A DNA stretch of 21,973 nt from a virus. The position numbers and the translations under genes were made by a program. Numbering within the stretch: position 1 is the first letter of the stretch; every line of letters begins with the position of its first letter. The stretch lies in IMG/VR virus record IMGVR_UViG_3300029309_000389, positions 1 to 21,973 of that record; one strand, 5' to 3'. This document shows positions 1 to 19,753 of this stretch, piece by piece. The notes beneath the pieces are model-generated. The model was not told where the DNA came from, searched no databases, and was given only the letters and a program-made list of their open reading frames with translations.

Positions 1-37
1 ATTTAATTTTTCAGGACATAGGGTCATAGGAGCATAA
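1..37 (+). CDS. C-terminal end of a tail adhesin-like protein (partial)
   Basis: Only the last eleven codons lie in the window, read in the frame of position 2 and ending in TAA at 35-37. The peptide FNFSGHRVIGA closely parallels the C-terminus of the C1q-like protein at 1765-2292 (FNWPFFQGHRIAV). This is therefore probably the tail of a paralogous jelly-roll adhesin. The next gene begins one base after the stop, and its ribosome binding site (AGGAGC, 28-33) lies inside these last codons. The identification rests on a short match to a neighbour, so it is tentative. Confidence 0.6.
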   Translation, partial: FNFSGHRVIGA

Positions 38-38
38 C

Positions 39-389
39 ATGGCAGTAACAACAATACCAACAGCGGGAATAGCGGATGATGCGGTCACTCCAGCTAAAAC
101 TTCAGGGGTTGGTATTACAATGGTAGACCAATTTAGATTGACTGCTAATTTAACCGCAGACGCAGACCCAATTACTTCTAATTTAGAAAGAGTAGATGAT
201 GCTTCTTTTTCACAAATAGGCACAGGAATGACTTTAAGTAGTGGAATATATACATTTCCTACAACAGGATTATTTCAAGTTAGTGTTAATGCTAGTTTTC
301 AAATCTCACAAGATGTTAATGCAGATGTTGAAACTTATGTTTCATCTGATAGTGGTGGTAGTTATGACCAAGTTGCTTTAGCAAAGTAG
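39..389 (+). CDS. C1q/TNF-like tail adhesin, N-terminal part, cut short by a frameshift
   Basis: This 116-residue product opens with a short module (TTIPTAGIADDAVTPAK) that recurs in the protein at 2855-3502 (NTLPAGAFADDAITADK). A beta-rich stretch follows, typical of C1q/TNF-like jelly rolls in phage tail fibres and appendages, for example GIYTFPTTGLFQVSVNASF. The frame ends at TAG 387-389, followed directly by a second TAG. Reading continues sensibly in the +1 frame to 561, so the intact gene would be 39-561 with about 173 residues. AGGAGC at 28-33 supports the ATG at 39. The product probably sits on the tail or virion surface and takes part in host binding. The family assignment is inferred from fold-like sequence patterns. 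Confidence 0.7.
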   Translation: MAVTTIPTAGIADDAVTPAKTSGVGITMVDQFRLTANLTADADPITSNLERVDDASFSQIGTGMTLSSGIYTFPTTGLFQVSVNASFQISQDVNADVETYVSSDSGGSYDQVALAK

Positions 390-561
390 TAGTTTTTCTA
401 ATTTTGTTTCAAATTCCATAGCTTTTGTAAATGTCTCTAACGCAAGTACATTTCGTGTAAAATTTGTTCTAAGTGGTGTTGCTTCTACCGATACAAGATT
501 ACAAGGTAATACTAATCGTAACTCAACAGCATTTACATTTATTAGATTAGGAGATACATAG
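388..561 (+). pseudogene. C-terminal part of the frameshifted adhesin, +1 frame
   Basis: From 388 the +1 frame stays open to TAG at 559-561 and encodes a beta-rich C-terminus (SSFSNFVSNSIAFVN ... RNSTAFTFIRLGDT). This is the expected second half of the jelly roll begun at 39; the last strand, FTFIRLGDT, looks like a normal domain end. No credible start codon or ribosome site serves this piece alone. The next gene starts two bases after its stop, as expected for a real gene end. The shift must lie between 382 and 387 (CAAAGT), because the +1 frame has a stop at 379-381. One extra A in the AAA run would suffice. A real mutation, a sequencing error and recoding are all possible. Confidence 0.75.
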
Positions 562-562
562 A

Positions 563-1036
563 ATGGGATACATCGGAAACCCTATAGTACAGGGAAATTT
601 TTCAGTTATTGATGATATTAGCGGAAGCTTTAATGGTTCTGACACACAGTTTACTATAGCTGTAGGGGGCACCACACAAACAATAGGTTCACTAGCATCG
701 CTAATGATTCATATAAATGGTGTCTATCAAGTACCAGGAACAGCCTTTACAGCGGGCTCAACATCTGGTACAATAGCATTTACAGGACCACCTGCAAACG
801 GTGCAACGTTTTCAGGGCAGATATTCGGAGATACTTTAGACATAGGTACTCCAAGTGACGCAACAGTTACTGCTGCGAAACTAACAAGTATTCAAGGTGC
901 GTACAGAAATGTACAAACTTTGACAGGTGGCTTATCTATAGCAGCATCAGAGAATGCTAGTATAGTGGGTCCTATAACAGTGTCCTCAGGACAGACAATA
1001 AACGTAGCCAGTGGTGGAACGCTGGTGATACTATAA
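563..1036 (+). CDS. Small beta-rich tail fibre/appendage protein
   Basis: A 157-residue protein, rich in Gly, Thr, Ser and Ala. It starts MGYIGNPIVQGNFSVIDD and includes a central segment with alternating beta-like residues (LASLMIHINGVYQVPG). It ends in a low-complexity beta segment (ENASIVGPITVSSGQTINV) like the repetitive shafts of phage tail fibres. It also carries SDATVTAAKL, a version of the short ADDA(V/I)T-K module of its neighbours. It begins two bases after the end of the frameshifted adhesin and is followed by the ribosome-site cassette GGAGTAAACA. One GGGGGCAC octamer lies inside it at 665-672, read as Val-Gly-Gly-Thr. It is probably a structural tail component; no enzymatic motif is visible. 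Confidence 0.65.
   Translation: MGYIGNPIVQGNFSVIDDISGSFNGSDTQFTIAVGGTTQTIGSLASLMIHINGVYQVPGTAFTAGSTSGTIAFTGPPANGATFSGQIFGDTLDIGTPSDATVTAAKLTSIQGAYRNVQTLTGGLSIAASENASIVGPITVSSGQTINVASGGTLVIL
665..672 (+). repeat. GGGGGCAC octamer, copy 1
   Basis: Inside the gene 563-1036, read GTA GGG GGC ACC (Val-Gly-Gly-Thr). First of ten exact copies in the window. Confidence 0.85.
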
Positions 1037-1046
1037 GGAGTAAACA

Positions 1047-1415
1047 ATGGCAGATTGTGCACAAGCAATACAATCAATTGGTTCATACGAGTTTGTCATA
1101 AGTGGTGCCCCCTCTACCGAAGCGGAGTTTAATTCGCAAGTTAAATGGGTATCTGGCGCTGACTCTAACGGTACGGCTATTTTTGGCTCTAAACCAGATG
1201 CTGTTACTTGGGCAAAAGTCAAAGCCGATATGGACAAACAAGACAAGTTCGCTGATCAAAAAGTAATCAACGAATCTGCAAGAGCTTATCTTGCATCTAC
1301 TGATTGGTATTCAATCAGAGAGGCAGAAGGCGGAACTGCTATGCCTTCTGATGTAAAAACAAAGAGAGCAGCAGAACGTGCTAAGGTTGTGGAATACGCA
1401 GACTTTAGCGGATAG
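1047..1415 (+). CDS. Putative tail assembly protein (tail-fibre chaperone-like)
   Basis: A 122-residue, mostly soluble protein. The C-terminal half carries YLASTDWYSIREAEGG followed by GTAMPSDVKTKRAAERAKV. This resembles the (Y)LxxTDWYxxRxxExGxxxPxxVxxxRxxAR pattern common in small phage proteins encoded next to tail fibre genes and annotated as tail assembly or tail-fibre assembly proteins. The N-terminal half (IGSYEFVISGAPSTEAEF) may be a small substrate- or fibre-binding domain. It sits between an adhesin-like gene and a second chaperone-like gene, with identical ribosome-site cassettes on both sides. A GTGCCCCC octamer lies at 1105-1112. The function is inferred from motif and context and was not confirmed by a search. 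Confidence 0.55.
   Translation: MADCAQAIQSIGSYEFVISGAPSTEAEFNSQVKWVSGADSNGTAIFGSKPDAVTWAKVKADMDKQDKFADQKVINESARAYLASTDWYSIREAEGGTAMPSDVKTKRAAERAKVVEYADFSG
1105..1112 (-). repeat. GGGGGCAC octamer, copy 2
   Basis: Reads GTGCCCCC on the plus strand, inside 1047-1415, with codons GGT GCC CCC (Gly-Ala-Pro). Confidence 0.85.
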
Positions 1416-2855: not shown

Positions 2856-3502
2856 TGGCACTTAATACATTACCCGCAGGAGCTTTTGCAGATGATGCAA
2901 TCACAGCTGATAAAATTAATTTAGCTAATACATTTGCGTTTACAGGCACAGTAACTGGTACACCTAACGACTTGGTAAAAATATCTTCAGCTAATGGTAC
3001 GAGTCTTGCCTCTTTAGAATTAACAAATGTATTTACAACAACTTATAATAACTATTTACTAGTAGGTACTTTCACACCAGTTAATGATGGTAATGATCTT
3101 AAAGGATCTTTTATGAGTGGTTCCACAGCTACTTCTGATAGTGAGTACAGATACATACTAAGATCCAGTATTGGCTCATCTTCATCAGCTTCACAAAGTG
3201 ATACACGAGGTTTTAATACAGATCATTTTAGATTAAATTCATCAGGAGTATCCAATAGCAATAATTTTGGAATAAATGTTTCTGTTTACATAATGAATCC
3301 TATGGCTTCATCAACTACCAACACACCAGGTGATCCTCATGTTTTTGGTGACAGTTTTCATTATGCAGATAATAACACAGTTGTTAGAAGTTACTTCGGT
3401 GTTAATTATCAAACGAGTGCTGATTACAATGGTTTTAAATTAATATTTTCTAATAACAGCATACAGTTGTATAACTATTGCTTATATGGGTTTAATAAAT
3501 AA
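2855..3502 (+). CDS. Tail appendage protein with shared N-terminal module
   Basis: A 215-residue protein. Its start, MALNTLPAGAFADDAITADK, is clearly related to the module at the start of the frameshifted adhesin (39-389). The body is rich in Ser, Asn and Tyr with alternating beta-like segments (NNYLLVGTFTPVNDGNDLKG) and ends FSNNSIQLYNYCLYGFNK. It looks like a carbohydrate- or receptor-facing domain carried on a shared attachment module. TAATG overlaps on both sides place it within the coupled tail operon. No enzymatic residues are recognised, and the family assignment is by module similarity only. Confidence 0.65.
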   Translation: MALNTLPAGAFADDAITADKINLANTFAFTGTVTGTPNDLVKISSANGTSLASLELTNVFTTTYNNYLLVGTFTPVNDGNDLKGSFMSGSTATSDSEYRYILRSSIGSSSSASQSDTRGFNTDHFRLNSSGVSNSNNFGINVSVYIMNPMASSTTNTPGDPHVFGDSFHYADNNTVVRSYFGVNYQTSADYNGFKLIFSNNSIQLYNYCLYGFNK

Positions 3503-4008: not shown

Positions 4009-5862
4009 ATGCCATTAGTACAATTAACAGCGCCTCCAGGAGTTATCACAGACATAACAGACTATCAAGCGCAGATGCGTTATACTAACGCAGACAAGGT
4101 GCGTTTCTTTCAAGGCTTTGCAGAGAAGATAGGTGGCTGGACTAAACGATTTAGTTCATCACAACTACAAGGGCAATGCCGTAAAATATTCCCACATAGA
4201 GATACAGATGGTAGTAAGTTTATATTTATGGGAACATCAACTCACTTCTTTGTGGAGTATAGTGGTCAAGTCTATGACATTACACCATTTAGAACAGACC
4301 CTATAACTTTAACTAATCCATACACTACAGGTTCTGCAGGTTCTAATGTAGTAACAGTAACACATGCTAATCATGGTTTAGCTCATACTGATCCAGGTTC
4401 TCGTGTTGTTGTACAATCAGCAGTTACATTCGATGGTGTTACTATTGCAGCTCAAGAATATGTAGCAACATTTATTAATTCTAATCAATACAGTATTGTA
4501 GCTTCTTCAGGCACAGCCTCATCTGGAAGTCAAACAGGCGGAGGTTCTATAACACTTAGATACTTAACTAACAATGGACCAGATGATGGTTTAACAGGTT
4601 ATGGTTTTGGTGCTGGTGTGTGGGGTGCTTCTTCATGGGGCACAGCTCGTTCTGCTTCTGGTGTTGTATTATCTCCTAGAGTTTGGTCTATAGATGCGTT
4701 CGGTGAAGACATCGTAGCTTCTGTAGGAGGTGGTGAAGATACAATATATTATTTTGATGTTAGTGCTTTTGTAGCGGCTCCTGATACATTTAGGGGAACT
4801 ACACTAGCGTTTTACGTAACAAACACTTTAAGTGGAGATGCTTCACAGATACCTACTAAAGTTGGACAAGTGTTGGTGTCTACACCAGATAGGCACTTAG
4901 TTGTATTTGGTTCTAATCCTCAAGGTTCTTCTGTATATGATAGAATGACCATAAGATTTTCAGATCAAGAAAGTCTGAGTACATGGAATGCACAGATAAC
5001 AAATACGGCTGGTGAACAGAGGCTAGGTACAGGAACTAATATAGAAGCTGTAGAAAAAGGACGTGGTCAAATATTTGTTTGGACAGATGCAGACGTATAC
5101 TCTATGCAATTTATTGGTCCACCTTTTACATTCTCATTCTCTGTATTAGGAGAGATATCTGGAACTATATCCAAGAACGCAGCTACCACAATTGAAGGTG
5201 CAGCATTTTGGATGGGTGTGGATAATTTTTATATGTATGATGGTGCAGTTAGAACTTTACCATGTCCTGTATTACAACATGTATTTGATGATTTTAATCA
5301 AGTACAAAGAGAAAAAGTATTTGCTGGTCAGAATATTAAATTTAATGAGATATGGTGGTTCTACCCATCAGCTGGCTCTGATGATATTGATAAGTATATA
5401 ATATATAATTATATAGATAATAACTGGTCAATAGGTACTTTAGGTAGAACAGCGTGGGTAGATTCTAATATCTTTGCTAACCCATTAGCAGTAGATAAGC
5501 TTGGCTTACAATATAATCACGAGTCTGGAACTGATGATGCAGGTTCTGCTATTACAGCTTTTGTAGAAACAGGTTTCTTTAATGGTGATGCTAATGGTGA
5601 CAATCTTTATTTTGTAAATAGAGTTATACCTGATGTAACATATAGTTCAGGTACAAATATTAAATTTACTTTGAAGACAAAAGTATTTCCACAAGATACC
5701 GAAATAACAAAAGGACCTTTTACAATATCTAATACAGATAATAGATTAGATATGCGTGCTAGAGGTAGATCTTTTCAAGCTAGATATGAAACAGATGCTA
5801 CAGGTGTGGCATGGCGTTTAGGCACATGGAGAGCAGAAGGAAGAACAGACGGAGCTAGATAA
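4009..5862 (+). CDS. Packaged DNA stabilization protein, P22 gp10-like
   Basis: A 617-residue protein. Its N-terminus has the recognisable pattern LTAPPGVITDITDYQ followed by MRYTNADKVRFFQGFAEKIGGW. In the P22 gp10 family this segment introduces a large beta-rich, propeller-like tail hub or plug protein that seals the portal after DNA packaging. It is longer than P22 gp10 (about 470 residues), as are many marine homologues. Conserved-looking segments include FIFMGTSTHFFVEY, DRHLVVFGSNPQGS and MGVDNFYMYDGAVR. AAAGGGGG at 3993-4000 provides the ribosome site, and its G run belongs to a GGGGGCAC octamer. The family indicates a short-tailed virion. It ends in a TAATG overlap with the next gene. 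Confidence 0.8.
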   Translation: MPLVQLTAPPGVITDITDYQAQMRYTNADKVRFFQGFAEKIGGWTKRFSSSQLQGQCRKIFPHRDTDGSKFIFMGTSTHFFVEYSGQVYDITPFRTDPITLTNPYTTGSAGSNVVTVTHANHGLAHTDPGSRVVVQSAVTFDGVTIAAQEYVATFINSNQYSIVASSGTASSGSQTGGGSITLRYLTNNGPDDGLTGYGFGAGVWGASSWGTARSASGVVLSPRVWSIDAFGEDIVASVGGGEDTIYYFDVSAFVAAPDTFRGTTLAFYVTNTLSGDASQIPTKVGQVLVSTPDRHLVVFGSNPQGSSVYDRMTIRFSDQESLSTWNAQITNTAGEQRLGTGTNIEAVEKGRGQIFVWTDADVYSMQFIGPPFTFSFSVLGEISGTISKNAATTIEGAAFWMGVDNFYMYDGAVRTLPCPVLQHVFDDFNQVQREKVFAGQNIKFNEIWWFYPSAGSDDIDKYIIYNYIDNNWSIGTLGRTAWVDSNIFANPLAVDKLGLQYNHESGTDDAGSAITAFVETGFFNGDANGDNLYFVNRVIPDVTYSSGTNIKFTLKTKVFPQDTEITKGPFTISNTDNRLDMRARGRSFQARYETDATGVAWRLGTWRAEGRTDGAR

Positions 5863-9852: not shown

Positions 9853-12800
9853 ATGGCAGAAGAAACAACAGGCATAGATTTAAGTAATATAAACTTAAAC
9901 AATATTAAGACTTTAAATGAAATGCTTTCTGATGCCGCGTCAGGACAACCTTCATCAGCTGCTGTCGAAGCAAAAAATAATTACTATTCTATATCAGACG
10001 ATCCTTCAGCTCCACTTGTAGAGATCCCTAAAAATTTATCCCCTGAAGAAGTAGATGCGTATCTAGCATCTGATGAATTACAAGCACAAATATTTAATCA
10101 AGGATTTTTATACATTCCTGGCACAGCCGCTAGAAAAATAGAAGCTCCTACTCTGGATGAAAAAGGAGCATTCGCTAGAGGCTTTGGTCAGATAAAAGAT
10201 TTAATATTAAATGCTCCAACATATATAAATAATAGTTTTCAAGATATAATAGGTAACGAAGATTACCAGATAGAATTAAACTCTATAATCCGACAGTATG
10301 AAACTGATGCAGCAGCTAAATCATTTTTTACTACAGAAGATGGAGAGGTTAAACCATTCGCACCGAGTGTAGAAGATATATTTATGTCAGGTGACGAGGG
10401 AAAAATAGGAGACTTTATAGATTACGTAGCAAATCTTGGTGGACAAATCACAGCTGCTGCTATCCCACAAGCAATAATAGGATTGGCTTTAAAGTTTACA
10501 CCAGCAGGAAGAGCTGTTCAATTTACAGCACAAGCAGTTACGTCTGCTGCTGCTTTAGGTTTACCTCTTATTTTGGGTAAACAATTAGAAGAAACAGATG
10601 ATCCAAATGCAGCAGTTACGCTTCTAGGAAGTTCTGTATTTGGCACAGTAGAAGCAGCACTTGGTCTTCCATCAAGAGTTATAACAGGAGCAGTAAAGAA
10701 AAAAATTGGAGAACAAGCTTATAACAATTGGGCTAGATCATTTGTTACAGGCGGATTCAAGTCTGGTCTTCTTGAGGCTACAGCAGAAACACTTCAAGAC
10801 GCAACTATAGAAACAGCAGGTGCAGCAGAACGTGTTGATGATATATCAGAATTACCACAAGAATTATCTAAAACATTTTCTGATCCTGCAGTTTTAAAAA
10901 ATTTAAGAGAAGCTGGTTATGGTGGATTCATAGGAGGTTTTTTATTTGGTGGTCCAATACAGGTAGTTTCTGATAGGCACGCAAAACAAGCATATGAATC
11001 TGCTAAAAAATTTGAAGGCACCACTAGGTTAATAACCACTACTAACTTTAATGATCCTGCAGTAAACGAATATAAAGAAAAGAAAGTAACCGTTAAAGAT
11101 TTACCTGAGATAGCAGACAAAGATGGTAATGTCATAAAAGATAAAGACGGTAATCCTGAAGTTCCTAAATTTGTAGTGGTAGGTACAACAGTTATAGATG
11201 GTGAAAAACATGTTGTATTAATTAACACTACTGATAAAACAGATATGCCAAGCACAACTGTTCCTTTAAAAGAAGCTCCAAATTTATTAAGTATTTACAC
11301 AGAACCAGAAGTTGTAGAAAAAACAGAAGTCAATACAGAGGCTATACCAGATACCACAACAACTTTATTTAATGAAATATCTGAAGATAATAAAAAAAAT
11401 AAAAGAAAGATAATAGGTGTTACCGAAGAACAAGGTGAGTTAATTGCACAAGAAATGCGTAAAGGCGTTTCTTTTGAAGAGGCTGTTAAGAAGCACGCAC
11501 CTGGTGCTGCTTACATGGACTTTAATAAAAAGAAAGAAACTAAACCTGCAGAAGTAATTGAACCAGAAGAAGAGACTTTTGTAAATCATAATAAGAATAC
11601 TGTTAAGGCTGCTGAAAGAAGATTATTAGAGAGAGGGTATTCTAAGAAAACTATAAACTCTATATATAAAGAACCTAATGGTAGTGACGATATAATATCA
11701 TTAGCAGATGATGAAATGAATTATATAGATGACTTACGTTCTGACTTAGAAAATTTAAATTACTATAAAGGACCTGAAGGCATTGCTAAGATAGAGCGTT
11801 TACAAGAAGATATTGCTAAAGGTAAGCGAGGTAAGACTAGAGGTAGAGAATTATTAGAAGACATTGTAAAAAGTAAAATAGCATTCCAACCTATAGAAGT
11901 AACTAACAAATATAGATCTGGTGAAAAAGTCGTGCCCCCTTTGTCGAAAGAAGAATTACAAAAAGCAGGATATACTGTAGCCCCAATAAAATATATAAAG
12001 GCAGATTTTGAGAAAGATCTTATTAATAGTAGAGCTGAATTAAATAACACTACAGATGTAAATGAAAGAAGTATTATAGAAAGAAGAATAAGATATTTAA
12101 AATCTTTATTTAAAATATCTGGGCAACCTTTAGAAAACAGATACAATACTCTAAGAAGTATGATAACTGGTAAAGGTTACTTATTTTTAGATCGTCAAAT
12201 AACTAAGATAGGAGACTTACCTGCACAATTAAAAGGAGTGCAAGATGCTTTAGATGGTGCACTAAAAAACAATTTTTTAAGTGACGTAGAAAAAAGATTA
12301 TCAGTATCAGAATTTACAAAGAGAATAGATAATATATTACAAGATCAATCAGACTTTGACGTATTGCTAATTAGTTTAGGAGCAACAGAAACCATACCTT
12401 TAAACGAGTTATCTAAAATTAGTATGGGTAATCCTATAATAAGCAAAATAACTAAAGATGTTAAAGGTAAAATAATACCACAATTTAAAAAAGAAACCAC
12501 AATGCAATGGTCTTTGCAAGGTGATAGCCCTAAAATGCAAGATAGTTTCCAAGGAGATCTACCTAAGTTAAGAGAACAAATGGTAGATGAATTGCAAAGG
12601 TTAATGGGATTAGGTCCAAATGATTTAGAGATAGTAAATAATTTTTTAACAAACACAGGCGAAGCTCTTAATGGTGGGTTCTTAGTAGATTTTGCTACAG
12701 TAGATGTAGCAACAAGAATGAGAACTATAGCTACATTACTTAATAGTGGAATGCCTATGGAACAAGCTACATTAGTAATACCACAAATAGTTCCACAAAA

Positions 12801-15800
12801 TAAAATAATAATAAGCACAAATGCTAATGAGCCTTTTGCTTTTAATCTCAAACAAGATCCTAGATTATTTACATTACATCACGAGACCATGCACGCTTTA
12901 ATGGTAAATGGTTTCTTTACAAAAGAAGAAACTAAAATACTAAAAGATGCCGCAAAAAATTATTGGATGAAACAATATGACATAAGCAACAGACCTGGCG
13001 CAGATAAATTAACAGAGGAACAGTTACAAGAAGAAGCTATTGCAAACGCTTTTGCGGGGTACATGGCTTTTAAATATCAACCTAGAGGTTTTATCGCCAC
13101 ATTATTTTACAGATTAAAATCTTATATAAACGCATTATCTAATGTTTTATTTAACAATGCATATACTAATGCAAATGAAATATTTGAACAAATAGATTTG
13201 GGCAAAATTAAAAAAAGAAAATATGATGCAGAAATACAAAGCTCTTTAGATTTATCTTACAGGAATGCAGCGTATATAGCTGGTAAAAAAATAAAAGACA
13301 TTAAAAAAGAATTAGAAACTTCAGCAGTGAAGGGGGGCACCGCGGAAAATGTGGGTCTTGTAGGTGTCAGTACGCAAAACAAAGCTGGTAATATAATATT
13401 AAATAGTCCTGCTATACGTAATGCCGTAAATGCAATGGCTTTAGAAGCAACTAAAACTTCACCAGAATTAGGTTTGGCAATAGATAAAATATATAATTAT
13501 GTTAACCATTTGACAGGTAATCAAAATGAAACAGGTTTACCTACAGTAAGTGATATTATTGAAATGGATAGTTTAATAACAGACACAAAAAGATTATTAT
13601 CATCTATAGATTATCGTAATTATACAGGAGCTGGTCTAACCCCACCAGGAGTTAGTAGATCTAACTTATCTAATGATTTAAATAGACTAAGAGCAACTCT
13701 TACTACACCGCAACAAAAAGATGCAATGCAATTATTAATAAATTTAATTTATACTAATTCAGGATTAGACTCTTCGCTCAATGGTACACAGAGAGGAAGA
13801 AGTTTAGATATAGCTGCTACTATATTTGCAACTAGATTAACAGAACAGAATATAGCTTTAGCTAACTCTCCTGTTATAATGTATCATGGTAGTAAAAAAG
13901 AATTTGAAGTATTTAAAAGACAATTTAAAGATGATTTCTTTTTTCATATAGGAAGTCCTGTTGCTGCTAATATAGCGGTTAACCGTAAAGCGGATGCTAA
14001 TCCTAGTATTATTATGAGAGTCATACCTAATTTAAAAAATCCTTTACGTATGAAAGACATTGGTACTTGGGATGCTGACACTATTTTAAATGAATTAAAT
14101 ATAACTGATACTAGAGGCAGGGGTGCTTTTACAACTAAGAAAGGTATATTTGTATCATCTGACATGGAAGCTGCTATAACTGGACCCGATGGTGTAGTAG
14201 ACTATGAACTAATAAATGTATTACATCAACAAATATTTACACCAGAAGAAACTCTAAGATTAAAAAGAGCTTTTAAACGTGAAGAAGATATCTTACGAAA
14301 AGTTCAAGAAAGTGAAATAGAAGCAGCTCGTAAAAAAATAGATGAAGATGATTTAGCTGCACAAGCTTCTGCAGTGCGTAAAATAGAAGGCGAATATAAA
14401 GATAAAATAGATAAAGCAAAAGACGAAAGATTAGCTAATGCATTAAGTAAAAAAGGTTACGATAGTATAGTTTATTTAAATTTAAATGAAGCATCGTCTG
14501 TAGAAGGCGGACCTAGAGATTCTTATATAGCATTTAAAAATGAACAACTAATACCAATTAAAGAAATACCTGCTGATTATGATTTAGGTAATCCTTTATT
14601 CCGCGCATCTTTAAATTCTAATCAAGATCCTTCTGCAACAGATTCTACACTTGATGAATTTCCTGAAATGAACAGACAGCAAGAAAATCAATCTATACGA
14701 ATTGTAGACAAATTAGTAGCAGACTATAGAAAAGCGTATGATGGTAATGTAAAACAATCTGAAGAACAAGTTGTAGAAAAGTTAAATAAATATAATAAGA
14801 TTGCTACCCACATAAGAATTTGGGCAGCTAATAACCCTATCTTTTCTCCTCTGTACAACACAGTAAAAGGCAGAGAGCAATTTACAACTGGATTACAGTT
14901 TCAATTACAACAACTTTTAGCTAGAAACTATCAGCCTGCTATGAAAGATACGCAAACAAATATTAACTTAACTAAAGCATTAGAAATATCTTCACAAGTT
15001 CCTGGTAGATATCTAGCAGATAGACCGCTAGATCAAGGTGGTAGAATTACTTTTATTGCTAAAGAAGATGGCAGAGGGGCAGGTAGTACATTAAAGGCAG
15101 GAGATGTTGTAATATTAGAAGGTGATGCAGCTCAAGCATATCTTGATGTACAAGAAGCTATGCAAATGGCTAATAAAGAAATTATTAGAGGATTGATGGC
15201 TAATGAAAATGTTACACCTATGTTAAAATTTGCAATTGGTGTTATAAAAGCCAACAGACCTGATTTAGCCGATACTACATTTGGTGATAATGAAACTCCT
15301 ATTGTAAATTATGATGATGATCAAATACAAAACATGGAATATGATGAAGTTAAATTTCTTGTTGATGCACTAAAAGATCCTGCTACATATTTACAACCTA
15401 ATAATAAATATAGTGTAGAATTAGCTAAGGTAGCAACTACTGTACTTAGTAAGGAGGCTACAGAAAGAGATGCGGATGGTTCTATTATTAAAACTACAGG
15501 TGTAGGCACTGGATTAAATGCTTTGGTGCAAGAATTATTTACATATAAAACTTTTAAACAAAATGATTATGTACCACTACAAAGATACGGTAATTATTTT
15601 ATAGCTGTAAAAGATGCAGATGGTAATGTAATAGAATATAGAATGTTTAATAAAGGAAAGTTTTTTGGTAAATTTTTAAATGAAGAGGATGATGTTAGAG
15701 AAGAGTTAAAAAAGAAATACCCTAACTTAGATATAGATAGTTTAGAAACTAGAGAGGTAGATATACAAAACTTAAGACAAGGAGCCAACGCTGATTTGTC

Positions 15801-17856
15801 ACACATGGATTCTATAGCACAATTCTTATCAGATTTAAATGCTAATAATTATATAGATGTTAGAAAAGAATTAGAAACATTAATAAATAAAAAAGTTGGA
15901 GCAGACATACGTGGCTATGGTGTATTCTTAAAACCTAGAAAAGAACAAGGTGGTGTTCCTGGATTTAGCATTGATTTTGGTAGAGCTATAAGTCAATACT
16001 TAACACTTGCAGCAGGATTTGCTGGCAAGAATAGATTTAAAACTACAGAAATAAGATTGTTAAATGATGTTAAACAAAGTGGTAAGAAAAATTTAAAAGA
16101 TGCTGTTACTAGATGGTATGAATATTCAGACGATCCTTATCAAGAGTTTGCGTTACCTAGAAGATTAGGTTTCTGGTGGTATTTAGGAGGCAACATATCA
16201 TCTGCCTTACTACAAACAATGAGTATACCTCAATTTGTTTTTGGTAAGTTAGGTACTTTTTCTAATACAGCAGTAGCTACAAAAGAATTAATGGTAGCCC
16301 TAAACGATGCTAGAAGAATGTTAACTTTACCTGGAATTACTCAAACTAAATTTCAACAAAGAACTTTACAAGATATATTTTTAGACTTTAGTAAGGTGCC
16401 AGATGATGTTAAACAAGATTATTTAAGAGATGTAGCTAACGGTATAATAAAACCAGGATCTGCTTTTAAAGAATCTGGTATGCCCACAAGTCAAGTTAAT
16501 TATAGAACTACCAGCAAAGTTAGAGAAGGTTTAAAAACTGCTGAAAATACTGTAATGGGTGGTGCTTTTGCTACTATGGAAACATTTTCACGTACTGCTG
16601 CTTACATTGCAGCATATAGATTATTTAGTAAAAATAAGAAAGCCAGAGATAAAGCTCATAAATATTTTATGCATGATGCTAATTATAGATATTCCCTACA
16701 GTTAAACAATAATGAAATTAGTCCTAGAACATTATCACAATTTGTTATTGAAGAAGACTTTGGTGTATATGGTAAGACCGAAAGACCAGCAGTAATGCGT
16801 GGTCCTGGTTCTGTGGTATTCTTATTTAATACATATGTAGCACAGATGTTAAGTCAAATATTTAGAAACCTAACAAGCAGAGGTTTGCTTGGAAAAGAAA
16901 TGGCTGCAAAGGCATTGACAATGATAGGTTTAACTGGTGGTATATTTGCTACTCCTTTCTTTGATGATGCCGCGTGGTTGGCAGAGTTTGTATACAATCA
17001 AGTTACAGGTATAAGAACAGATAGAAGACAAGTTATAAAAAGATACTTTGCTGATTACGGTTTTGGTCCAGGTGTTATTGAAGCTGCAGAAAATGGTTTA
17101 GTAAATAAGTGGTTAGGTTTTGATCTAGCTAGCAGAGTTAGATTTAATGTTCCTGGTGTACAACAATTTAAAGCACTTCTAAATATGGCAGGTTTTAACT
17201 CTGGAGCTCGTGGTGAAGAAGCCCTTGGAGCTTTTGGCAGCATGACATTTGGTAATGCTCGTGGTATAATGAATAAGATAGAACAAGCAGGAGGTATAAG
17301 TCAATTAGATGGTGGAGATTATATTAAGATTATAGGGTCGGCTTTACCTACTTTTATGAAAAATTTAATAACAGCTACAGACTATTATTCGGGCGGTCCT
17401 ATATTTTCTGGAAAGGGTACTTTATTAATAGATAATCCTACAGCATATCAAGGGTTTTTAAAAACAATAGGTTTTAATCCTACAGAAATACAAAAAGCAC
17501 AACAGCTATTGTATCTAGAAAAAGTAAATGGTGGTGTTACTGCAGAAGCTAGACAAAGATTTAATACTAGAATAAAAAATTATTACAGAGACTTAATGAT
17601 ATACAGAGATAACCCAAAAAAGCTAGCTGAATTAGCGAAAGAAGAAAGAGAGATTATAGAAGATTTAATTAAGTTTAATAGCAACTTGCACCCTGGATTA
17701 AAGTTTTCTCCAAATGTTTATAGACTGATGCAAGAAGCTATGAAAGATGTGAATAGAATTTACAGGATAAGTGGTGGTAGTACGTATGAGATAATGTCTA
17801 ATCTACAAGATTATCAAATAGCTGGCATGGGTTTACTGCCTGCTCAACCGTACTAA
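9853..17856 (+). CDS. Giant polyvalent virion protein with metallopeptidase-like and ADP-ribosyltransferase-like domains
   Basis: A 2667-residue protein. Residues about 190-250 and 352-375 are hydrophobic and Gly/Ala-rich (GGQITAAAIPQAIIGLALKF, GYGGFIGGFLFGGP) and may contact membrane. HHETMH gives an HExxH zinc motif at H1010-H1014, with a possible third ligand at E1060/E1061 (EEAIANAFAGY). An ART-like domain opens with MYHGSKKEFEVF (Y1344-H1345-G1346), is interrupted by a charged helical insert, and closes with GYDSIVYLNLNEA and DSYIAF (about 1536-1561). YVPLQRYGNYF (about 1906-1916) and the long C-terminal part resemble associated domains of phage polyvalent proteins. Such proteins are usually packaged and injected with the DNA. 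No lysozyme motif is evident. AAAGGA at 9842-9847 sets the start. Confidence 0.75.
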   Translation: MAEETTGIDLSNINLNNIKTLNEMLSDAASGQPSSAAVEAKNNYYSISDDPSAPLVEIPKNLSPEEVDAYLASDELQAQIFNQGFLYIPGTAARKIEAPTLDEKGAFARGFGQIKDLILNAPTYINNSFQDIIGNEDYQIELNSIIRQYETDAAAKSFFTTEDGEVKPFAPSVEDIFMSGDEGKIGDFIDYVANLGGQITAAAIPQAIIGLALKFTPAGRAVQFTAQAVTSAAALGLPLILGKQLEETDDPNAAVTLLGSSVFGTVEAALGLPSRVITGAVKKKIGEQAYNNWARSFVTGGFKSGLLEATAETLQDATIETAGAAERVDDISELPQELSKTFSDPAVLKNLREAGYGGFIGGFLFGGPIQVVSDRHAKQAYESAKKFEGTTRLITTTNFNDPAVNEYKEKKVTVKDLPEIADKDGNVIKDKDGNPEVPKFVVVGTTVIDGEKHVVLINTTDKTDMPSTTVPLKEAPNLLSIYTEPEVVEKTEVNTEAIPDTTTTLFNEISEDNKKNKRKIIGVTEEQGELIAQEMRKGVSFEEAVKKHAPGAAYMDFNKKKETKPAEVIEPEEETFVNHNKNTVKAAERRLLERGYSKKTINSIYKEPNGSDDIISLADDEMNYIDDLRSDLENLNYYKGPEGIAKIERLQEDIAKGKRGKTRGRELLEDIVKSKIAFQPIEVTNKYRSGEKVVPPLSKEELQKAGYTVAPIKYIKADFEKDLINSRAELNNTTDVNERSIIERRIRYLKSLFKISGQPLENRYNTLRSMITGKGYLFLDRQITKIGDLPAQLKGVQDALDGALKNNFLSDVEKRLSVSEFTKRIDNILQDQSDFDVLLISLGATETIPLNELSKISMGNPIISKITKDVKGKIIPQFKKETTMQWSLQGDSPKMQDSFQGDLPKLREQMVDELQRLMGLGPNDLEIVNNFLTNTGEALNGGFLVDFATVDVATRMRTIATLLNSGMPMEQATLVIPQIVPQNKIIISTNANEPFAFNLKQDPRLFTLHHETMHALMVNGFFTKEETKILKDAAKNYWMKQYDISNRPGADKLTEEQLQEEAIANAFAGYMAFKYQPRGFIATLFYRLKSYINALSNVLFNNAYTNANEIFEQIDLGKIKKRKYDAEIQSSLDLSYRNAAYIAGKKIKDIKKELETSAVKGGTAENVGLVGVSTQNKAGNIILNSPAIRNAVNAMALEATKTSPELGLAIDKIYNYVNHLTGNQNETGLPTVSDIIEMDSLITDTKRLLSSIDYRNYTGAGLTPPGVSRSNLSNDLNRLRATLTTPQQKDAMQLLINLIYTNSGLDSSLNGTQRGRSLDIAATIFATRLTEQNIALANSPVIMYHGSKKEFEVFKRQFKDDFFFHIGSPVAANIAVNRKADANPSIIMRVIPNLKNPLRMKDIGTWDADTILNELNITDTRGRGAFTTKKGIFVSSDMEAAITGPDGVVDYELINVLHQQIFTPEETLRLKRAFKREEDILRKVQESEIEAARKKIDEDDLAAQASAVRKIEGEYKDKIDKAKDERLANALSKKGYDSIVYLNLNEASSVEGGPRDSYIAFKNEQLIPIKEIPADYDLGNPLFRASLNSNQDPSATDSTLDEFPEMNRQQENQSIRIVDKLVADYRKAYDGNVKQSEEQVVEKLNKYNKIATHIRIWAANNPIFSPLYNTVKGREQFTTGLQFQLQQLLARNYQPAMKDTQTNINLTKALEISSQVPGRYLADRPLDQGGRITFIAKEDGRGAGSTLKAGDVVILEGDAAQAYLDVQEAMQMANKEIIRGLMANENVTPMLKFAIGVIKANRPDLADTTFGDNETPIVNYDDDQIQNMEYDEVKFLVDALKDPATYLQPNNKYSVELAKVATTVLSKEATERDADGSIIKTTGVGTGLNALVQELFTYKTFKQNDYVPLQRYGNYFIAVKDADGNVIEYRMFNKGKFFGKFLNEEDDVREELKKKYPNLDIDSLETREVDIQNLRQGANADLSHMDSIAQFLSDLNANNYIDVRKELETLINKKVGADIRGYGVFLKPRKEQGGVPGFSIDFGRAISQYLTLAAGFAGKNRFKTTEIRLLNDVKQSGKKNLKDAVTRWYEYSDDPYQEFALPRRLGFWWYLGGNISSALLQTMSIPQFVFGKLGTFSNTAVATKELMVALNDARRMLTLPGITQTKFQQRTLQDIFLDFSKVPDDVKQDYLRDVANGIIKPGSAFKESGMPTSQVNYRTTSKVREGLKTAENTVMGGAFATMETFSRTAAYIAAYRLFSKNKKARDKAHKYFMHDANYRYSLQLNNNEISPRTLSQFVIEEDFGVYGKTERPAVMRGPGSVVFLFNTYVAQMLSQIFRNLTSRGLLGKEMAAKALTMIGLTGGIFATPFFDDAAWLAEFVYNQVTGIRTDRRQVIKRYFADYGFGPGVIEAAENGLVNKWLGFDLASRVRFNVPGVQQFKALLNMAGFNSGARGEEALGAFGSMTFGNARGIMNKIEQAGGISQLDGGDYIKIIGSALPTFMKNLITATDYYSGGPIFSGKGTLLIDNPTAYQGFLKTIGFNPTEIQKAQQLLYLEKVNGGVTAEARQRFNTRIKNYYRDLMIYRDNPKKLAELAKEEREIIEDLIKFNSNLHPGLKFSPNVYRLMQEAMKDVNRIYRISGGSTYEIMSNLQDYQIAGMGLLPAQPY
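11932..11939 (-). repeat. GGGGGCAC octamer, copy 6
   Basis: Reads GTGCCCCC on the plus strand inside the giant gene, with codons GTG CCC CCT (Val-Pro-Pro). Confidence 0.85.
13333..13340 (+). repeat. GGGGGCAC octamer, copy 7
   Basis: Inside the giant gene, read AAG GGG GGC ACC (Lys-Gly-Gly-Thr), between the peptidase-like and ART-like parts. Confidence 0.85.
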
Positions 17857-19091
17857 CATAGCCAGCTAACCCACTCTTTAGACTTAGAACCCTTAGGTTC
17901 ATCAACTACCACAGGAACTTGGAATGTCACACCGTATTCTGGGTGTGTAAACCATAACGCTTGTTGTGGTCGCTCTGATGTAAATCTATTTGAGTAAGCA
18001 TACTCGTCATATCCTTTAGTAGATCCATTAACAATGGTGCCTTTCAAAGATATATACTGGTGGTAGTGCCCAAGTAATACGTAGTCAATAGTCTTATTTC
18101 TATTGTGGTATTCTTGTTTAATTTTCTGTACACCACGGGCTATGGGTCCAAGCATACCCACAATTCCCGTGCCCCCTGCCACACCGAGACGATCTCCATG
18201 TGTTAGTAAGTAATTAATACCATAGACTTTATATACTGTGTCAAAGCCTGTAGGTATTTGGAACTGTATACGGTTATCATTTTTAAAATGTCTTGCTAAC
18301 AGATTGTACAGCATCCAATCATAGTTAGTTTTTGCCGCTTGTTTGTGGCGATATTGCTTGTAAGTTCTGGAGTGATTACCATAGGTACAGGGTACAAATA
18401 CTTTACCGAAAACTTTAGCAAATCTTTCTAGTGCCCATGTCATATTATCTAGCAAATCCAACACATGTTCTATATTAGTGCCATCATTGTTTTCTGCTAG
18501 CTCGTCATGTATATCACCAGATATCATATCGCCACCCAAAGCACAGATTATTCCTGGATATCTAGGATTAACCATGTGATTCGTACATAAGTCAATAGTA
18601 GTTTCTACTACGTTCTTAAATCTTTTTAATGCTATATCTCTATCGTATTTATTAATACCATTAACAGCTTGTTCATCTACCACTTCGCCCCAATGAAAGT
18701 CAGATAAAAATATAGTAGGCACACCTGGTGCACCCTTTGCTTTTGTATTTTTAGTCAGCCATTTTGGCGGCTTGGCTACATGCTTTTCTGCTTTTATTAA
18801 ACTGTCTTTTAATCTTTGATGCGCTAAGTTTTCTCTAGCTAGTACATCTACTTTCTTTTTTAATTCACGAACTTCTGTATCGTGTTCATACTGCTGTTCT
18901 ATTAATGCTGCTTCTGCATCGGGGGGCACGACTGTGGGTTTAATACCCTGTAGTTGTGCTTGTTCTATTCTTTCTAGTAGTGTTGTGCGTGGTATACCCA
19001 GCTCTCTGGAAGCTGCGGCTTTGTTACCCTTGTTATTAATTACTGCATTTAATGCATCAATTAATATACTTTTTGCTGTTGGTTTACCCAT
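17853..19091 (-). CDS. Fis-type HTH fused to calcineurin-like metallophosphoesterase
   Basis: A 412-residue protein. Residues about 10-45 form a Fis/NtrC-type helix-turn-helix (NNKGNKAAASRELGIPRTTL). A coiled coil follows (about 65-100). The metallophosphoesterase domain shows all the usual metal-binding motifs: SDFH (D131, H133), GGD (D188), GNH (N239, H240), THGD (H298) and GHYH (H342, H344). Family members include Mre11/SbcD-type nucleases and phosphodiesterases; the substrate cannot be told here. The HTH suggests DNA targeting. It is the only leftward gene in the window. Its TAG overlaps the giant gene's stop by four bases, leaving no room for a terminator. AGGAG lies upstream of the ATG, with its own promoter beyond it. 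Confidence 0.85.
   Translation of the reverse strand: MGKPTAKSILIDALNAVINNKGNKAAASRELGIPRTTLLERIEQAQLQGIKPTVVPPDAEAALIEQQYEHDTEVRELKKKVDVLARENLAHQRLKDSLIKAEKHVAKPPKWLTKNTKAKGAPGVPTIFLSDFHWGEVVDEQAVNGINKYDRDIALKRFKNVVETTIDLCTNHMVNPRYPGIICALGGDMISGDIHDELAENNDGTNIEHVLDLLDNMTWALERFAKVFGKVFVPCTYGNHSRTYKQYRHKQAAKTNYDWMLYNLLARHFKNDNRIQFQIPTGFDTVYKVYGINYLLTHGDRLGVAGGTGIVGMLGPIARGVQKIKQEYHNRNKTIDYVLLGHYHQYISLKGTIVNGSTKGYDEYAYSNRFTSERPQQALWFTHPEYGVTFQVPVVVDEPKGSKSKEWVSWLC
18169..18176 (-). repeat. GGGGGCAC octamer, copy 8
   Basis: Reads GTGCCCCC on the plus strand. In the leftward gene it encodes Gly-Gly-Thr within VAGGTGIVG. Confidence 0.85.
18922..18929 (+). repeat. GGGGGCAC octamer, copy 9
   Basis: Within the leftward HTH-phosphoesterase gene, antisense to its coding strand, where the codons are GTG CCC CCC (Val-Pro-Pro). 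Confidence 0.85.
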
Positions 19092-19109
19092 GATGTTCTC
19101 CTGTAATTG

Positions 19110-19122
19110 TGGTATATTACCA
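19110..19122. promoter_or_regulatory. Palindrome over the -10 box of the leftward promoter (candidate operator)
   Basis: TGGTA-TAT-TACCA is a perfect inverted repeat with five-base arms. It covers the whole -10 hexamer of the promoter for the HTH-phosphoesterase gene, including its TG extension. A protein bound here would block leftward transcription. The helix-turn-helix protein encoded just downstream is the obvious candidate, which would make it autoregulatory. The arms are short, so chance occurrence in AT-rich DNA cannot be excluded. Confidence 0.4.
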
Positions 19123-19142
19123 TTATTTTATGCTATTGTCAA
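19114..19142 (-). promoter_or_regulatory. Sigma-70-type promoter of the HTH-phosphoesterase gene
   Basis: On the minus strand TTGACA (19142-19137, perfect -35) is followed after 17 bases by TAATAT (19119-19114). A TGG just upstream gives a TGn extended -10. The predicted start near 19107 leaves a leader of about 15 bases that contains AGGAG before the ATG at 19091. Its -35 shares five bases with the -35 of the divergent promoter. Confidence 0.65.
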
Positions 19143-19164
19143 GTAAATTCCACTGTGATATAAT
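19136..19164 (+). promoter_or_regulatory. Strong extended -10 promoter of the lysis/small-protein operon
   Basis: TTGTCA (19136-19141) and TATAAT (19159-19164) are separated by 17 bases, and TGA precedes the -10 to give an extended -10 element. This is the best promoter-like sequence I found in the window. ATG 19171 lies six bases after the -10 box, the same geometry as at 6432-6444. The mRNA is therefore predicted to be leaderless. Confidence 0.75.
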
Positions 19165-19170
19165 TATCTA

Positions 19171-19275
19171 ATGATACACACAGATGCAATAGAAATGACA
19201 GCTCCTGTTGTTAAGATTACTGGGGATGCGGTTAAAGTGGAAGAATCTTCAGAAGATTCTGAATCTAAAGAGTAA
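19171..19275 (+). CDS. 34-residue acidic peptide, first gene of the lysis/small-protein operon
   Basis: MIHTDAIEMTAPVVKITGDA is followed by an acidic Ser/Glu tail ending VEESSEDSESKE. The ORF begins at the predicted transcription start of a strong promoter, and an in-frame TGA at 19156-19158 excludes a longer N-terminus. The ribosome site of the next gene overlaps its stop (AAAGGA, 19274-19279). It could be a real small protein or a leader ORF that primes translation of the operon. I recognise no family. Its acidity contrasts with the very basic proteins that follow. Confidence 0.5.
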   Translation: MIHTDAIEMTAPVVKITGDAVKVEESSEDSESKE

Positions 19276-19284
19276 AGGAAATCC

Positions 19285-19491
19285 ATGAACAGAGCTGCTA
19301 TGGAGCAGATGATTAAAAATGCTCCTGCTTCTCGTAAGAGAAAGCCTAAAAAAACTAACGTGGATAAGCGTGTTAAGAAGTTAATGTCTAAGCAAGCTAA
19401 GAAAAAATCTTTCATGTCTAATTTAACTAAGCCCGCTCCTACTTTAGCTAGGATACAAAAAAATTTAAAGATGAAAAAGAAAAGAACATGA
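19285..19491 (+). CDS. Small basic protein of unknown function
   Basis: A 68-residue protein with a very high Lys/Arg content (RKRKPKKTNVDKRVKKLM, then a C-terminal KMKKKRT). It looks like a nucleic-acid-binding or DNA-neutralising peptide, but no fold is recognisable. AAAGGA at 19274-19279 supports the ATG at 19285. It overlaps the next gene by ATGA at 19488-19491. Confidence 0.6.
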   Translation: MNRAAMEQMIKNAPASRKRKPKKTNVDKRVKKLMSKQAKKKSFMSNLTKPAPTLARIQKNLKMKKKRT

Positions 19492-19664
19492 AGAAAAAAT
19501 CTACAGTTAATAAAGCAGGTAACTATACAAAACCTGGTATGCGTAAAGCATTATTTAATAGGATCAAAGCTAGCGGAAAAGGTGGTGCCCCAGGACAGTG
19601 GTCAGCCCGTAAAGCTCAAATGTTAGCTAAACAATACAAAGCAAAGGGCGGAGGTTACAAATGA
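19488..19664 (+). CDS. Small basic protein, GNYTKPGMRK type
   Basis: A 58-residue protein containing AGNYTKPGMRKALFNRIKAS, then GGAPGQWSARKAQMLAKQYK and a C-terminal KAKGGGYK. I recall this pattern (GNYTKPxMRKxLFxxIKxGxKGGxPGQWSARKAQ) as frequent in uncultured marine phages and some other environmental phages, always as a small uncharacterised protein. The Trp, Tyr and Arg/Lys pattern would suit binding to nucleic acid. It is joined to both neighbours by ATGA overlaps. No function is known to me. Confidence 0.7.
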   Translation: MKKKSTVNKAGNYTKPGMRKALFNRIKASGKGGAPGQWSARKAQMLAKQYKAKGGGYK

Positions 19665-19753
19665 TTCGTATTATTAAAAAAATTGTTTGCAAAATATTTC
19701 GTATAAAAGAATGCAAATGCAAATTACCTAAGAAAAAGAAAGGGAAAAAATAA
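19661..19753 (+). CDS. 30-residue cationic, cysteine-containing peptide
   Basis: MIRIIKKIVCKIFRIKECKC is followed by KLPKKKKGKK. The first 16 residues form an amphipathic helix of alternating Ile/Val/Phe and Lys/Arg. Cys10, Cys18 and Cys20 follow, and the tail is almost all Lys. It is linked to its neighbours by ATGA upstream and TAATG downstream, which supports a genuine gene despite its size. Membrane-active or nucleic-acid-binding roles are both plausible. Confidence 0.5.
   Translation: MIRIIKKIVCKIFRIKECKCKLPKKKKGKK

Follow-up and report, generated by a model that had tools for sequence, protein, structure and literature searches.

A predicted C1q/TNF-like adhesin gene of a marine, probably SAR11-infecting phage, probably inactivated by a 14-base short-homology deletion in a module swap slot

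Introduction

How should a phage gene be read when its frame closes at two adjoining stop codons while a shifted frame carries the same protein onwards? Positions 39–561 of the window raise this question, the window being the whole stretch of DNA analysed here, positions 1–21,973 (21,973 bases) of an IMG/VR virus record for which no completeness is given. A sequence-only reading of this locus had described one jelly-roll gene with a frame change in a host-recognition module. As causes it had offered one extra base, a +1 recoding signal, on/off variation, decay of a duplicated gene, or a sequencing or assembly error.

Results

One gene in two frames

The frame break comprised the following features.

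39–389, plus strand: truncated ORF of 116 aa, consisting of a shared N-terminal tip and the first part of the jelly roll (residues from ~25 on match the related locus L001)
380–384, plus strand: putative deletion junction with one remaining AGCAA, where relatives are 14 bases longer (DNA alignments, repeat in L001)
385–561, plus strand: out-of-frame second gene part, 58 codons plus TAG (open frame, match to L001)
387–392, plus strand: two adjoining TAG stops that close the frame from 39 (read from the sequence)

The frame from ATG 39 was open to AAG 384–386 and met TAG at 387–389, with a second TAG (390–392) directly behind it. The +1 frame had no stop across 385–558 and ended at TAG 559–561. 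The counterpart in L001 is a single uninterrupted protein of 181 aa that covers both window parts. In protein comparison, window 111–383 corresponded to its residues 28–118 (94.5% amino-acid identity) and window 418–558 to its residues 135–181 (93.6%). As both parts match one uninterrupted protein, the second frame is homologous coding sequence, and this homology rules out a chance open frame. The interruption of the gene is real in the sequence as given. The tandem stops, the coherent continuation to 561 and the site CAAAGT at 382–387 were all located correctly by the sequence-only reading. Its view of a single jelly-roll gene with a frame change, in a module of host-recognition type, is supported by the L001 match together with the predicted fold and published C1q genes described below.

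Fourteen bases are absent from the window

In comparison to L001, the closest relative (93% DNA identity over 107–565), the only gap was 14 bases absent from the window at 380–384. A second close relative, one contig represented by loci L024, L044 and L087 (85% DNA identity over 291–557), was also 14 bases longer at this site; further along, where the sequences have diverged, its alignment also had two single-base gaps that compensate each other. In both, the reading frame was open across the break site. We infer that the bases were lost by the window, not gained by its relatives.

An extra base in the A run or the AGT triplets had been suggested as the cause. The 14-base difference to both close relatives rules this out, as does the A/AGT stretch, which is identical and in frame in L001 and so cannot itself be responsible; one base is equivalent to the observed change modulo three only. 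Programmed +1 recoding joining the two frames would suit two conserved parts with a stop codon at the shift point. However, the stretch CAAAGTAGTAGT is in frame in L001, the window is without 14 bases that code in its relatives, and the other 116 distinct family copies (≥140 aa) are all read without a shift (0/116 need one), so the two-frame arrangement is not kept in relatives. As the A run and AGT triplets are unchanged and read in frame in L001, a recoding signal would be superfluous. We give recoding next to no credence.

The extra stretch in L001 is flanked by two copies of AGCAA (5 bp), 14 bases apart with nine other bases between the copies; in L044, the second copy differs. This arrangement fits the signature of a short-homology deletion, and slipped-strand or another short-homology deletion would be the mechanism of the loss. 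Of 398 different 14-bp deletions that the L001 gene would allow, only the window's has 5 bp of junction homology, a post hoc count that fits a short-homology deletion but is no proof of one. The same gene offers 25 deletions of 4–40 bp with at least 5 bp of homology, some of it longer (up to 12 bp), and the 5-bp repeat is thus modest. Codon differences from L001 amounted to six replacing and five silent in the first part and three of each in the second, and are too few to show relaxed selection or to date the deletion.

String searches of viral contigs found the exact junction in no other contig (0; records closely similar to the window might be absent from this search) and gave no match (0) to a degenerate left-flank pattern. 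The right-flank string was present in the L001 contig only. When the loop absent from the window was searched as a degenerate pattern, 33 stretches matched, with a family match only in two already-known contigs (as L060 and L087).

The break is confined to the window copy

We sought family copies in the window and 167 loci using 28 query proteins. This gave 148 copies, 123 of them distinct by their last 250 bases; distinct copies were counted because several loci are the same contig. Six shorter copies were set aside, leaving 117 of the 123 that span at least 140 aa. Two frames or an internal stop occurred in one of these 117, the window's own, in a set biased towards good matches. One set comprised the 80 best loci out of 579 relatives, a selection that would tend to pass over broken copies; the loci found with the two gene parts separately (42 and 12) are less biased. 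Five of the six short copies were inspected. Four ran into a locus end (L133, L136, L031 and one of L161) and the fifth, also in L161, was a partial hit inside an open ORF. In the sixth, L024, the match started at base 1 of its locus.

The break region was highly variable in sequence and length among 28 aligned relatives. Other small indels were compensated single-base pairs in low-identity stretches of L039, L048, L050 and L051, and single-base indels at match edges in L027 (at 1053) and L005 (at 14, upstream of the gene). Neither part of 39–561 matched a PHROGs family at E 0.01; the L001 protein had a weak PHROGs match only (phrog_5986, unknown function, E 0.0015). A cellular-genome scan with the single L001 protein retrieved one relative, on a contig titled as a Prochlorococcus single-cell genome.

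Reversible phase variation of the adhesin had been proposed, and this is a type of host-recognition gene in which variation is expected. However, there is no tandem repeat tract: the window has a single AGCAA, and its A run is three bases long. What was lost between the two repeat copies is unique sequence, which a second slip of this kind cannot bring back, and none of the other 116 distinct copies (≥140 aa) has a switch of this type. A repeat-driven on/off switch therefore finds no footing here and is very hard to credit. Decay as such is possible. As for a duplicated gene, window 1–1100 used as a DNA query against the record matched only itself, and the fragment thus holds no near-identical duplicate.

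The main rival explanation is an intact phage gene, with the 14-base deletion introduced during amplification, sequencing or assembly. The site lies close to the left contig end (~380 bases), 116 of the 117 distinct copies of this span are uninterrupted, and the junction was seen in no other viral contig. In addition, such contigs are not free of errors or breaks: the related contig L035 has its own one-base frame break, at the position corresponding to window 644. On the other hand, short-read and homopolymer errors do not typically take the form of 14 bases lost at a 5-base repeat. The remaining window also looks intact: 24 hand-picked ORFs cover 95.7% of it, one of them of 2667 aa, and 562–1842 showed no indel against five relatives (L031, L033, L034, L036 and L038). 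We consider an artefact unlikely, though a serious alternative.

The L035 break consists of one additional base inside the downstream tail-fiber-type gene, where the protein match extends over just 36 residues at 69%; it is that contig's own frame break, true or error.

A swap slot in the tail-module gene row

The gene and its neighbour were divided into the following modules.

39–114, plus strand: shared N-terminal tip module, ~25 codons (DNA matches up to 114 in L031, L033–L038 and L040; 17 loci carry the tip)
107–561, plus strand: C1q/TNF-like jelly-roll module, putatively swapped in, with a relative in L001 (93% DNA identity to L001 over 107–565; predicted fold of L001)
549–553, plus strand: AGGAG, probable ribosome-binding site of the next gene, inside the out-of-frame part (function suggested by its position, 9 bases before ATG 563)
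563–1036, plus strand: next gene, conserved slot partner with a tail fiber family match (phrog_18673, E 4.6e-28; synteny)

The region ~39–114 and that from 562 onwards, as far as ~1842 in the best cases, were common to a group of viral contigs (L031, L033–L039 and others), across which the downstream gene had 76–96% DNA identity. The intervening 107–561 matched L001, whose N-terminus and downstream gene differ from those of the window. The locus thus combines a conserved N-terminal end and conserved neighbours with a variable C-terminal domain, the window's domain coming from another context. In 11 of the 17 tip-carrying loci, the downstream-gene homologue started at the stop of the slot gene (TAATG overlap), and in two more (L005 and L027) it came after an extra stretch. 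All 17 slot ORFs were open within the available sequence, those of L017, L040 and L042 running off the locus end. Slot proteins were identical in three pairs (L033/L034, L035/L037 and L036/L038).

Since AGGAG 549–553 sits in the out-of-frame part, adhesin loss need not silence the next gene. The codons of a conserved C-terminal RLGD motif (549–563) contain this AGGAG. In nine relatives, other slot domains close with codons such as ATGGAGGT just ahead of the overlapping TAATG, and different slot domains may share a need to supply the ribosome-binding signal.

In L042, positions 2963–3047 had 99% DNA identity to window 1–85, and the adjoining 3081–3182 had 99% identity to window 2935–3036. Pieces 2.9 kb apart in the window are side by side there, a further sign of mosaic exchange. 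A separate gene of the row, 1765–2292, had a weak, below-cutoff Pfam C1q match (E 0.0023); on the strength of this match, the phage may carry a second C1q-like adhesin.

Predicted fold and the truncated product

Single chains were predicted with AlphaFold2, using an alignment of 28 sequences for the L001 protein. The L001 model (pLDDT 88.5, pTM 0.79) matched TNF ligands and C1q-like proteins in a Foldseek search of the PDB, from E 1.1e-6. VIA-align 2 placed C1QL3 (Z 15.9, rmsd 2.2, 130 aligned) level with the TNF-family protein EDA-A2 (Z 15.8, rmsd 1.9, 132 aligned). Both have the same fold as the L001 protein at ~11–12% identity, and a common fold shows no common function. In BFVD, the best four matches of the model were nameless and several further ones were C1q domain-containing phage proteins. 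Pfam returned no family for the L001 protein at E 0.01, nor a match to the C1q profile PF00386, so its relation to C1q rests on fold. The gene product is thus predicted to be a C1q/TNF-type jelly roll, as modelled on L001 rather than on a joined window protein, and its role would be that of an adhesin.

The window frame ends at the end of strand 113–120, and of the ten strands listed, those at 128–140, 147–153 and 172–179 lie behind the break. The product therefore lacks the last three predicted strands. The truncated window product was modelled with pLDDT 66.7 and pTM 0.50 (compared to pLDDT 88.5 for the intact relative), although a poor model alone shows no misfolding. The truncated product is most likely inactive, and the window gene would have lost its function. 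A functional role for the 116-aa protein itself, such as that of a tip or plug lacking the receptor-binding domain, could be imagined given the intact N-terminal tip module. However, it ends inside the jelly roll with three strands missing and gives a poor model, and the shorter family copies were locus-end cuts or partial hits where inspected (5/6). We regard such a role as very unlikely.

Host and remaining gene content

The nearest named relatives of the gene and its neighbours were pelagiphages. This included HTVC115P, with 72.1% DNA identity over 1414–1754 and 48.7% protein identity for 563–1033. Other window genes matched phages of several hosts, among them the head-and-packaging-type gene 4009–5862, with <40% identity among the matches listed. 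SAR11 would be the likely host.

Elsewhere in the window, the 2667-aa ORF (9853–17856, plus strand) had just a partial match to phrog_11358, of unknown function. An exonuclease-like gene (17853–19091, minus strand; phrog_284, E 1.1e-48) stands among plus-strand genes. Beside it, 19092–19752 has few convincing ORFs and is possibly a regulatory or end region.

Discussion

We consider it probable that 39–561 is a swap-slot C1q/TNF-like adhesin gene inactivated by a 14-bp short-homology deletion. Its slot would belong to the row of tail-module genes in a marine phage that probably infects SAR11. Behind the slot's shared N-terminal tip, a jelly-roll module akin to the L001 one would have been placed; 14 bp would then have been lost between two 5-bp repeats, by slipped-strand or another short-homology deletion. 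Such a deletion would leave the final three predicted strands in the wrong frame, beyond two stops, so that the product is truncated and most likely inactive. This order of events, module swap before deletion, is the one we infer.

Going further, the break might be a real and selected allele, the adhesin being switched off by a simple deletion, e.g. when its receptor becomes a liability, with the tip and the ribosome-binding site of the next gene kept as landing ends for later recombination with a new domain. We think this improbable. Should the break prove real, an uncultured marine phage has here a naturally occurring null version of a gene of receptor-binding type, apparently shortly after the module was swapped. 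This would point to one adhesin of the row being dispensable, if only temporarily. Otherwise, the locus shows that a small error close to the end of a single contig can resemble recoding.

We found no report of this case in the literature on pelagiphages, C1q-like proteins, tail-fiber variation and short-repeat deletions, which is not proof of absence. Related architectures are known. C1q receptor-binding-type genes in metaviromic islands of pelagiphages, related to Ca. Pelagibacter phages (PMC3909814), resemble the window in having a C1q-type domain near tail-fiber genes and in combining a variable C1q part with an N-terminal end that is conserved. The window copy differs in being broken, and the word frameshift occurs 0 times in the main text of that paper. 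A Mu-like phage of cryoconite holes has C1q-domain gene variants (PMC7468147) that, like the window's module, are interchangeable on a conserved backbone; environment and phage are different, and the portion of that report covered here describes no broken copy. Family members in the Pelagibacter phages HTVC204P, HTVC034P and HTVC035P, annotated as hypothetical, had 34–37% protein identity to L001 over 86–94%, and in HTVC034P the gene comes two genes after a 'putative tail fiber'. Unlike the window gene, all three matched as one uninterrupted piece. The window gene is best read as an adhesin allele that was inactivated recently, within a hypervariable module of a known kind.
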